NCBI RefSeq assembly: GCF_025460835.1
Contig: NZ_JAMXAY010000025.1
Coordinates: forward strand, 6,715 to 70,714
Length of the DNA: 64,000 bases
Reading direction: 5' to 3'
Origin: Parapedobacter soli
GTDB taxonomy: Bacteria > Bacteroidota > Bacteroidia > Sphingobacteriales > Sphingobacteriaceae
The notes beneath the pieces are model-generated. The model did not search any database, was not told the DNA's origin, and saw nothing but the letters and a program-made list of their open reading frames with translations. Made by a program: the position numbers and the translations under genes. Positions within the stretch are counted from its first letter, which is position 1, and each line of letters starts with the position of its first letter. Of the stretch, positions 11,096-62,730 are shown piece by piece.

Positions 11096-12374
11096 TAGAA
11101 CGAAAGCACCCGCACATTTCGCAACCACAAGGTTCGATCTGATCCGGCCTAGGCAAGTTACATTCGCAAACGGGCTTCCGGTTTTTGTTTTTGATGCGGG
11201 CGACCAAGACCTCGTGCGGATTGAATGGATCGTTGGCAACATTTTCGCAGCAGAAGATCATGCTCTGCTGAATACCGCCGTGTGCGAAATGCTGCTCGAA
11301 GGCACATCAGTCCATAGCAGCGCGGCGTTGGCCGAGCTGATTGATTTCCATGGTGCTTTCTTAGTGCCGTCGTTTAGCTACGACCAGTCGTCCTTAACGT
11401 TGTTCTCGCTCAATAAACACCTTAATCAGTTGTTGCCGTTGGTGCGCGAAATCCTCACGGATTCGGTTTTTCCCGAGAGGGAGCTGGCTACTTACATCCG
11501 AAACAGTACCCAGAAATTGCAGGTGTCGCTCAAGAAAAACGGATTCGAAGCACGTAGGCAGTTCAACCGCGCGGTATTCGGAACCTCCCGTTATGGCTAT
11601 GCGCCCGAAGTGGCAGATTATGAGCGCATCAACCGCAACGATCTATTGCAACTGTTCGGTAAGCAGTACCGGCCGGAAAATGGTACGCTGGTGGTAGCTG
11701 GGAAGGTGACGGATGAGGTGATTGATATGCTGGAACGGCTGTTTGGCAACGAATGGCAGCCTGCGGGCACCGCCGCATCCGTAGACGGCCCACCCACAAT
11801 AACACCTGCACAAGCAGGCGAACTCATTGTTGTGGAGCGACCCGATGCACTGCAGTCGGCCATCCGTTTGGGGAGGCAGTCGATCCAGCGGTCCCATCCC
11901 GACTTCCCCGGTTTGCAGGTGGTCAACACATTGCTGGGGGGCTATTTCGGTTCGCGGTTGATGGCCAATATCCGCGAAGACAAAGGCTACACGTATGGCG
12001 TGAGCTCCGGCTTGGCCTCACTCAAGCACAGTGCGTTTTTCACCATCGCTTCGGAGGTCGGAGTGCAAGTCACGGCGGCGACGTTAGTCGAAATCGAAAA
12101 GGAGATGCGCCGGTTGCGCGAAGAGCCGGTGCCAGAGACCGAATTGGCAACCGTACGCAATTACATGATGGGAACCATGCTCGGCAGTTTGGAAAACATA
12201 TTTTCCCATGCGGATAAATTCAAGAACGTTTATTTTTCGGGACTCGATTTAGACTATTACGATTATTATATCGATGTGGTCAATTCAATCACACAAGCTG
12301 AGGTGCAGCGATTGGCCAATACCTATCTAGATTACGATAAGATGGTTAAAGTGGTTGTGGGGAAACTTAGTTAA
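11082..12374 (+). CDS. M16 peptidase family protein lacking the zinc motif
   Basis: 430 residues of M16 fold. In the position where the upstream partner has HLFEH this protein reads LLNTAVCEMLLEGTSVHSSA, without the His and Glu ligands, so it should be inactive on its own. The later RLGRQSIQRSHPDF, GGYFGSRLMANIREDKGYTYG and SGLASLKHSAFFTIASEVG are well conserved. The R/Y-containing loop (NIREDKGYTYG) usually contributes substrate-binding residues to the partner's active site. It overlaps the preceding gene by 14 bases, which suggests coupled translation and equal amounts of both subunits. Confidence 0.92.
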   Translation: MTMLDRTKAPAHFATTRFDLIRPRQVTFANGLPVFVFDAGDQDLVRIEWIVGNIFAAEDHALLNTAVCEMLLEGTSVHSSAALAELIDFHGAFLVPSFSYDQSSLTLFSLNKHLNQLLPLVREILTDSVFPERELATYIRNSTQKLQVSLKKNGFEARRQFNRAVFGTSRYGYAPEVADYERINRNDLLQLFGKQYRPENGTLVVAGKVTDEVIDMLERLFGNEWQPAGTAASVDGPPTITPAQAGELIVVERPDALQSAIRLGRQSIQRSHPDFPGLQVVNTLLGGYFGSRLMANIREDKGYTYGVSSGLASLKHSAFFTIASEVGVQVTAATLVEIEKEMRRLREEPVPETELATVRNYMMGTMLGSLENIFSHADKFKNVYFSGLDLDYYDYYIDVVNSITQAEVQRLANTYLDYDKMVKVVVGKLS

Positions 12375-12500
12375 TTGTCAATGGTCAATGGTCAAATGTT
12401 AATTGTCAATGGTCAAATGTTAATGGTTAATTGAATTGACCGCTAACAATTAAAAAACGGCTGACAGAATTAACAACTGACCATTAACCATTAATAATTC
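12371..12500. repeat. short direct and inverted repeats between convergent genes
   Basis: The gap between the M16 gene and pabB holds two copies of TTAATTGTCAATGGTCAA with variants, then TTAATGGTTAATTG. The right side carries the near-complement (GACCATTAACCATTAATAATT), so the region can fold into a long AT-rich imperfect hairpin. It lies between converging genes and may help end transcription from both sides. Similar GTCAATGG-type repeats are common between genes in this phylum. Confidence 0.6.
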
Positions 12501-24104: not shown

Positions 24105-25106
<1,002 letters not shown>

Positions 25107-25132: not shown

Positions 25133-25161
25133 AAAAAGCCCTCGGTCTCCGGGGGCTTTTT
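25133..25161 (+). terminator. terminator after gapA (works on both strands)
   Basis: AAAAAGCCCTCGG-TCT-CCGGGGGCTTTTT, a 13-base stem with one wobble pair, with A-runs and T-runs on both sides. It separates the gapA operon from the repeat array. Confidence 0.9.
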
Positions 25162-25189: not shown

Positions 25190-25599
25190 ATACTACCTTC
25201 GGAAACGATCGCTTCCGTCTCGCAAACCGTTACTTGCGGCCCGGAAGCCGTTGCTTGCGTCTCGCAAACCGTTGCTTCCGTCTCGCAAACCGTTGCTTGT
25301 GGTCCGGAAACCGTTACTTGCGGCCCGGAAGCCGTTACTTGCGTCTCGCAAGCCGTTACTTGCGGCCCGGAAGCCGTTGCTTGCGGCCCGGAAGCCGTTG
25401 CTTCCGTCTCGCAAACCGTTACTTGCGGCCCGGAAGCCGTTACTTGTGGGTCGGAAGCCGTTGCTTGCGGCCCGGAAGCCGTTACTTGTGGTCCGGAAAC
25501 CGTTGCTTGTGGTCCGAAAGCCGTTACTTGTGGTCCGGAAACCGTTGCTTGTGGTCCGGAAACCGTTGCTTATGGCCCGGAAGCCGTTGCTTGTGGTTA
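25190..25599. repeat. array of 21-bp tandem repeats
   Basis: Seventeen complete 21-base units run from 25227 to 25583, preceded by a diverged copy at 25206-25226 and a partial one, and followed by a partial copy (25584-25599) that contains the mnmA stop codon. Each unit is CCGTT(A/G)CTT plus a 12-base variable half. Four main versions of that half occur: GCGGCCCGGAAG, (G/C)CGTCTCGCAA(A/G), GTGGTCCGGAAA and rare single variants. The core of each unit has imperfect dyad symmetry, perfect in the copy at 25338-25352 (CTTGCG-TCT-CGCAAG). Because 21 is a multiple of three and the unit has no stop, all forward frames stay open, but none has a convincing start. It lies between convergent gapA and mnmA. 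Its function is unknown. Confidence 0.95.
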
Positions 25600-26685
25600 T
25601 ATTAAGAAGCCGCCGCCCAGTAAATCATCGCCCTCATAGAAAACAGCCGATTGGCCTGGCGCAATGCCCTTTACCGCATGGTGGAATTCGACCTTCATCT
25701 TCCCGTCTTGTTGAACAATCGTGCTGTTCATGCCCGCGTCTTTATACCTTATTTTGGTTACCGCTTCCATCGGTTGGTCGATCGCGGCATATTTAACAAG
25801 GTTCACATCCTTCACATACGCTTCACGGCTTTGCAGCTCGTGTTCGTCGCCCAGCACCACGGTGTTGCTCTCGGGCATGATCTTGGTTACGAATACAGGG
25901 CGGCCGAGGGCAATACCCAGCCCTTTCCGTTGGCCAACGGTATAATAGGGATAGCCTTGATGTTGGCCTACCACGGTGCCGTCGGTAAGGATGAAGTTGC
26001 CCGGACCTATGCGGTCGTCGATGTCTTCCACCCGGTGGCGCAAAAACGCCCGGTAGTCATTGTCGGGCACAAAGCAGATCTCATAGCTCTCCGATTTGCT
26101 AGCAAGCTCCAGTTGCCCCATTTCTGCCGCCATCTGCCTGATTTCGGATTTGGTATACGATCCCAGCGGGAATTGCGTGCGGGCGAGGTTTTCCTGTGAA
26201 ACACCCCAGAGCACGTATGATTGGTCTTTGTGTGTGTCCCGGCCTTTGGAAATGACGTACCGGCCATTCTCCTGTTGACGGATATTAGCATAATGCCCGG
26301 TGGCAATAAATTCGCAGTCCAATTTGTTGGCACGCTTCAGCAACGCTTCCCATTTGATGTAGGTGTTGCAAAGCACACAGGGGTTCGGAGTGCGTCCGGC
26401 CAGGTACTCATCTACGAAATTATCGATTACCGAGTCGCCGAATTCCCCCCGGATATCCAATATATAATGTGGGAACCCGAAAGATACGGCCAGCGCCCGT
26501 GCATCGTTTATGCTGTCGAGGCTACAGCAGCCCGTTTCTTTGGAGGAGCTACCCGAAGAGGCATAATCCCAGGTTTTCATCGTCAGCCCGATGACTTCAT
26601 ACCCCTGCTCGTGGAGCATCACAGCCGCAACTGAACTGTCTACCCCGCCGCTCATAGCCACCAATACTCTTCCTCTTTTACTCAT
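25597..26685 (-). CDS. mnmA: tRNA-specific 2-thiouridylase
   Basis: 362 residues. MnmA puts sulfur on U34 of the tRNAs for Lys, Glu and Gln. The PP-loop is AMSGGVDSSVAAVML (about residues 9-23). The catalytic Cys are in NPCVLCNTYIKWEALLKRA and in the YEICFVPD segment. KDQSYVLWGVSQENLART and GQHQGYPYYTVGQRKGLGIA are also family marks. The last codons run directly into the 21-bp repeat array, whose final partial unit contains the stop. A TACCTTTG promoter-like element lies at 26703-26710. Confidence 0.96.
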   Translation of the reverse strand: MSKRGRVLVAMSGGVDSSVAAVMLHEQGYEVIGLTMKTWDYASSGSSSKETGCCSLDSINDARALAVSFGFPHYILDIRGEFGDSVIDNFVDEYLAGRTPNPCVLCNTYIKWEALLKRANKLDCEFIATGHYANIRQQENGRYVISKGRDTHKDQSYVLWGVSQENLARTQFPLGSYTKSEIRQMAAEMGQLELASKSESYEICFVPDNDYRAFLRHRVEDIDDRIGPGNFILTDGTVVGQHQGYPYYTVGQRKGLGIALGRPVFVTKIMPESNTVVLGDEHELQSREAYVKDVNLVKYAAIDQPMEAVTKIRYKDAGMNSTIVQQDGKMKVEFHHAVKGIAPGQSAVFYEGDDLLGGGFLI

Positions 26686-54460: not shown

Positions 54461-54491
54461 GATTCTTTCCAGATTCTTTCCAGATTCTGCG
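54461..54491. repeat. short direct repeat
   Basis: AGATTCTTTCC is present in two and a half copies between the nucleoid protein gene and cmoA. No role is apparent. Confidence 0.6.
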
Positions 54492-62654: not shown

Positions 62655-62689
62655 CTTGTATGATTTACAGTCCAAAAATCCATATTCCT

Positions 62690-62715
62690 TTATCCTTCAT
62701 CCTTCATCCTTCATC
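62690..62715. repeat. short CCTTCAT tandem repeat
   Basis: TCCTTCA is repeated three to four times in the gap between the Rrf2 and DUF2249 genes. It could vary in copy number by slippage. Confidence 0.65.
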
Positions 62716-62730
62716 CACAAATCCTCCAGT

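Follow-up and report, generated by a model that had tools for sequence, protein, structure and literature searches.

The array of 21-bp tandem repeats between gapA and mnmA in Parapedobacter soli is, judging from sequence comparisons, probably a solitary copy, dispersed from elsewhere, that belongs to a family of 21-bp dyad arrays; the home of this family appears to be a module made up of a small HTH gene, an array, and an fn3 gene. In the window, by which we mean the whole 64,000-nucleotide stretch of DNA analyzed, the array does not lie between small HTH and fn3 genes, as it does in the module, but between gapA and mnmA with neither of these as a neighbor, and it is therefore a solitary array and not a module. 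The simplest account is that it is a copy of an array like that on contig C24 of the same genome, which moved and was then homogenized. At mnmA, the array is probably passive, and a role specific to mnmA is not supported.

The array is highly regular (Table 1). TRF reported it at 25227-25593 with a period of 21, 17.5 copies, and 0% indels, and the unit list likewise keeps the step of 21 bp from unit to unit, with no insertion or deletion; identity at lag 21 over 25200-25599 was 0.82, compared with 0.36 for the best of 2,000 shuffles. Both TRF and cutting the sequence from 25227 bear out the 17 complete 21-base units (25227-25583) described in a preliminary description of this DNA, and the unit list agrees with the diverged unit that it placed before them (25200-25220, CGGAAACGATCGCTTCCGTCT) and with a last unit running into the mnmA stop (25578-25598). 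Of the 17 complete units obtained by cutting the array from 25227, 9 have CCGTTGCTT as their first half and the other 8 have CCGTTACTT, which is the constant half with an A/G alternative as first described. The variable second half had been said to have four main versions, a loose count, as three types recur (GCGGCCCGGAAG six times, GTGGTCCGGAAA four times, and CCGTCTCGCAAA twice) and five units are singletons. The supposed concentration of the GTGGTCCGGAAA type on the mnmA side holds for three of its four units, starting at 25479, 25521, and 25542, but not for the one at 25290. That the unit has no stop codon in any plus-strand frame is correct. The dyad consensus of the window array is modest (p = 0.028, column permutation). 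At its outer end, 21 bases (CTTCGGAAACGATCGCTTCCG, 25197-25217) are common to the window array and the one on contig C90, and the form on C120 is, by reading, one base shorter. A CRISPR array was rejected on account of the 21-bp step and of 3-base spacers that recur among units. Elsewhere in the window, TRF found a second small tandem array at 12370-12433 (periods 7/14/21/28, 21-bp consensus TGTTAATGGTCAATGGTCAAA) and short tandem repeats at 54461-54488 (11 bp) and 62686-62716 (7 bp, TCCTTCA).

Table 1. Features at the gapA-mnmA site (positions in the window; a dot marks features without a strand)
Feature	Position	Strand	Description	Basis
gapA	24111..25106	+	host neighbor	
Terminator-like hairpin 3' of gapA	25133..25161	.	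array lies between this hairpin and the mnmA stop	read from sequence
Outer unit	25197..25220	.	CGGAAACGATCGCTTCCG, palindromic except one pair	read from sequence
21-bp tandem array	25200..25599	.	19 units, register CGSAARC-SRTHR-CTTSYG-NNN, gap-free	TRF, unit list, lag test
Perfect inverted repeat	25338..25352	.	CTTGCGTCTCGCAAG	read from sequence
Last register unit	25578..25598	.	overlaps mnmA stop codon	
mnmA	25597..26685	-	host neighbor, 90-92% identical in congeners	

mnmA, which we take to encode the tRNA 2-thiouridylase, has a protein product 90% identical to its Parapedobacter tibetensis counterpart, and the sequence that follows mnmA in congener G008 is the same as in P. tibetensis, in line with the genus Parapedobacter. 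The mnmA TAA, which stands in the usual place, is followed immediately by CCACAAGCAACGG, so that the array extends from the next base on. The array is missing in all eight congeners, in which the 420 bases after mnmA were inspected, and the 3' ends of gapA and mnmA are 497 bases apart here compared with 65-124 in the seven of the eight congeners where both genes were found together, facing each other. As congeners lack the array and the mnmA stop has not shifted, the array arrived or grew in this lineage, and no context for it is kept among the congeners (n = 8). Beside the window array, no trace of an IS was noticed, and no tRNA was present in the six stretches checked for tRNA attachment. 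The suggestion that the array serves the mnmA mRNA, as its 3' untranslated region, is supported neither by this comparison nor by the other arrays of the genome, which lie between co-directional or divergent ORFs or after an HTH gene.

Blastn identified five arrays in the genome, on contigs C96 (the window), C120, C140, C24, and C90; all but the window array were checked with TRF, which bears them out. Their contexts are convergent gene ends for the window array, divergent ORFs for C120, co-directional ORFs for C140 and C90, and the position after an HTH gene for C24. The C90 array has a remnant of the 3' end of the HTH gene and is flanked on each side by a piece resembling the transposase gene on C144, itself a match to the IS982 model (E = 1.2e-70). 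Two stretches are common to C120 and C90, namely the flank on the HTH side and ~85 outer bases, the latter also found at C152, and we infer that this outer stretch is an end of the same IS982-linked element as that of C90. Units on C96, C120, and C90 have fewer mismatches to C24 than to the array on contig C22 of G134, a genome of another genus (3.84 versus 5.21, 3.17 versus 5.00, and 3.67 versus 5.67, respectively). The opposite is true for C140 (4.05 mismatches to C22 of G134 and 4.45 to C24), and more than one array source is therefore possible. The dyad score of C140 is not significant (p = 0.092). The C140 array (locus L089, ~2775-2837) is interrupted by a run of N that breaks the count of its units. 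The C24 array (locus L109, 2096-2704) contains a 105-bp higher-order repeat of 5.8 copies with a 99% match, a sign of recent amplification.

The home of the array family appears to be a multi-copy module with a small HTH gene, an array, and an fn3 gene. A small HTH_17-like gene precedes the array both on C24 and on C22 of G134, and its stop codon lies within the first dyad in part or whole; as the array touches this gene, its product is the natural candidate for the protein that binds it. C24 has the order HTH gene, array, fn3 gene, but with other genes between the array and the fn3 gene. Its HTH protein matches Pfam HTH_17 with an E value of 1.3e-4, below the curated cut-off, and its fn3-domain gene scores 22.5 bits against a Pfam cut-off of 25. 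A CHAP gene also belongs to both clusters, as do a small gene with an fn3 domain and small membrane-type proteins, and between the two genera the fn3 proteins are 79% and the HTH proteins 66% identical. At least seven fn3 copies are present in the P. soli genome, and among the three examined (C24, C112, and C136), the C136 gene has an array of different sequence and the C112 gene has none. Of the 399 family genomes, 68 have matches to a profile of four fn3 proteins (A1), and in a number of these there are at least seven matches. A small HTH-like gene was recognized upstream in 18 of 30 fn3 loci, through a profile match in 10 and through clustering in 8; compared with Pfam, one of the two clustered types gave an HTH_17 match below the cut-off and the other gave nothing. 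Against solved structures, the HTH profile matched a TetR chain alone (E = 0.72). In genome G326, the sequence between an HTH gene of this kind and a point ~243 bases before an fn3 gene can be read as diverged 21-bp units, and in G249, an array adjoins an fn3-like gene. The module's neighbors are often CHAP, DUF5675, or membrane-protein genes, and no replication or partition gene was present among the proteins named in the clusters ~1.5 kb around fn3 at the 30 loci. At loci L109 (2834-5000) and L193 (780-2937), both chromosomal, CHAP, membrane-type, and lipoprotein-like genes surround the fn3 gene, and the fn3/CHAP/membrane-protein neighborhood looks like a putative lysis cassette. Searching viral contigs with the fn3 profile returned nothing.

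Most of the fn3 loci read share a 21-bp step. In a test open to every lag between 10 and 60 over the 1,200 bases upstream of fn3, the strongest lag was 21 or 42 at 26 of the 30 loci fetched, which include close relatives and are not independent, as opposed to 3/30 downstream and 14/160 control ends of mnmA loci, the controls being mostly coding DNA and the upstream stretches mostly not. The 21/42 peak was missing at four loci and weak (z < 5) at four of the 26 that had it. The period extends beyond the family: in a phylum sample of 395 genomes, the top upstream lag was 21 or 42 at four of six near-full-length fn3 loci, and TRF likewise found arrays of period 21 or 42 at four of these six. Nine of the 30 loci had arrays too short for the dyad test, and among the remaining 21 foldable arrays (length limits left 19 for covariation and 18 for phase), 20 had a dyad consensus at p < 0.05 by column permutation, often of different sequence, such as AAGTGATCACTT, ATGTTCATGAACA, TAAAGnCGATnGGCTTTA, and TTAACCGGATAnGGTTA; 13 of the 21 are 440-622 bp long. 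The phase of the first half of an array was kept in the second half in 15 of 18 cases and shifted by one base in three, where it must be considered that array ends for the dyad, covariation, and phase tests were set by lag-21 identity and that kept phase is thus partly built in. Phase was kept in seven arrays at ~12-13 bits per unit, and those that shifted are three near 8 bits. HTH type was weakly linked to the dyad center, GATC-rich dyads being the class concerned (one-sided p = 0.024, post hoc, with L232 left out).

These data bear directly on the alternative that the arrays are neutral minisatellites, according to which the mnmA array arose by slippage or unequal exchange, arrays are functionless everywhere, and the 21-bp step persists through copying. 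We consider this unlikely as an account of the whole family. It would be in keeping with the absence of the array from all eight congeners, with the local homogenization of unit types, and with the recent amplification on C24, but it leaves unexplained why the period is shared beside one gene family despite different unit sequences (26/30 upstream against 3/30 downstream), why 20 of 21 arrays have dyad units, and why phase is kept in the seven arrays at ~12-13 bits per unit. Such points oppose neutrality of the array family, less so of the mnmA copy. The preliminary description had held that a unit found nowhere else would favor neutrality; the unit in fact occurs at four other places in the genome and in another genus, and despite this, a passive copy at the mnmA site is likely.

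The dyads could in principle act in RNA or in DNA. As an RNA array, the transcript would be a string of hairpins that stabilizes the mRNA or binds an RNA-binding protein, a role that we regard as improbable. The dyad units themselves and the folding z-score of -2.71 for the minus strand, which is the mnmA sense (-1.65 for the plus strand, both over 25227-25520), would suit such a reading, as would the excess of G.T over A.C, seen on the module sense strand at 15 of the 18 loci without a tie, but the G.T excess largely tracks strand base composition, and other arrays are placed between ORFs that diverge or that run in the same direction. The arms do not covary: 1,535 Watson-Crick pairs were observed within arrays compared with 1,517.7 expected with independent arms, and only 2 of 19 loci reached p < 0.05. 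At individual arm positions, complementary pairs were rarer than expected at 3/16 in the P. soli genome (14/63 versus 24.5) and commoner at 2/17 over all units (108/145 versus 85.6), the test taking 20 C140 units, compared with 34 in the coding-frame test, owing to the run of N. RNA stem covariation and G.U bias gave no support beyond base composition. Nothing in an Rfam scan came near a family cut-off, the three matches reaching 15-19 bits against cut-offs of 47-100. The chain of hairpins originally proposed for the window array is weaker than described, with one perfect repeat (25338-25352) and, by count from the unit list, a G.G or C.C mismatch within the arm in 11 of the 19 units. Since the arms within arrays lack covariation, protein sites on DNA fit better than RNA hairpins, and of the RNA or protein binding array first suggested, the protein version is favored by the HTH home, the dyads, and the 21-bp step kept in relatives.

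A coding repeat, in which plus-strand RKPLLAx heptads would form a repetitive basic peptide, is the least credible of the readings. Every plus frame is free of stops, and amino-acid changes in frame 0 are below expectation in all five arrays (ratio 0.58-0.68, with only distinct C24 units used), but this is a weak signal, and frame -2 has comparable ratios (0.43-0.77). Furthermore, units of G134 have in-frame stops (e.g., CGG AAG TGA), the window frame continues antisense into mnmA, and the first C120 unit has a one-base deletion. The heptad reading was rejected for its weak signal and for the stops in a relative.

Similar arrays occur patchily across genomes of the family. Blastn at E ≤ 0.001 gave no match in 59 other genomes. 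A pattern built from the least variable positions of two units, allowing up to two mismatches, matched 3 of 399 family genomes, namely that of P. soli (G000, 41 + 71), G134 (12 + 15, at several loci), and G317 (1), and its reversed control matched none of the three. A looser three-unit pattern gave 264 hits in G299, 92 in G000, 39 in G134, 29 in G317, and 7 in G249; it matched 62/399 genomes, mostly as single hits at about the level of the reversed control, and only genomes with many hits were relied upon. The dyad score of G317 is not significant (p = 0.055). The reversed control of the three-unit pattern had 30 hits in G132, which are perhaps another period-21 array of different sequence. 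G299, the genome with the most array hits, is not one of the 68 with fn3 matches. Arrays lie at no fewer than six of its loci and are made of units of two types, some with ends like TTTACACACTTCGAGGGATACCGCC, and one array adjoins an IS256-like transposase piece (E = 8e-50). At locus L271 of G299 (2098-2808), an array of ~34 units lies between inverted TTTACACACTT ends, with no clear target duplication by eye, and resembles a non-autonomous IS256-type element carrying an array. A search of plasmid and phage DNA found nothing.

Taken together, dyads two helical turns apart, few indels, and arms without covariation fit a row of candidate dimeric protein sites. In the account we prefer, that of an array dispersed from an HTH-array-fn3 module, dimers of the HTH protein would line up along the array beside its own gene, on one helix face and two turns apart, and this binding would regulate or silence the fn3 operon. 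Copies of the array would have left a module, partly with insertion sequences, one landing after mnmA in this lineage, and would then have been homogenized by unequal exchange. The window copy may still bind the HTH protein encoded on C24, with no role for mnmA. A far-reaching and more doubtful extension is that Bacteroidota possess a self-diversifying regulator-array system, frequently with several copies to a genome, in which each small HTH protein has a private array of some 20-29 candidate dyad sites at exactly two helical turns, the partners change together, and geometry is what is selected; arrays would escape with insertion sequences and scatter protein-coating sites, the mnmA array being one. 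Among the literature matches listed, no publication on the 21-bp array or the HTH-array-fn3 module was found, the text of PMC6344855 contains neither "fibronectin" nor "bacteroidetes", and no precedent was met for a period kept across Bacteroidota with changing unit sequence and escaped solitary arrays. If the proposed account is right, these arrays would represent a DNA architecture set by its spacing and symmetry and not by its sequence, one that is widespread in Bacteroidota but easily missed in sequence searches. The paired HTH genes would then offer a ready set for testing the joint change of a regulator and its sites, and the patchy scattered 21-bp repeats in such genomes would be explained as escaped binding arrays.

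Tandem sites for a DNA-binding protein are of a known kind, as in iterons and tandem operator arrays, which include plasmid Rep iterons and partition-site arrays. Like iterons, the 21-bp arrays are direct repeats at about two helical turns beside the gene of a small DNA-binding protein. Unlike them, they are chromosomal, with no replication or partition gene among those named in the clusters near fn3, their unit sequence varies between modules, and solitary copies lie elsewhere. REP and BIME palindromes, which go with RAYT transposases, are also intergenic, palindromic, and scattered, whereas the arrays described here run strictly head to tail at 21 bp and have IS982 and IS256 pieces nearby. 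The STRR and LTRR sequences are dispersed minisatellites of cyanobacteria, and they too are tandem units scattered through the intergenic regions of some species; the 21-bp arrays differ from them in combining a fixed step with a changing sequence and a gene-linked home locus.
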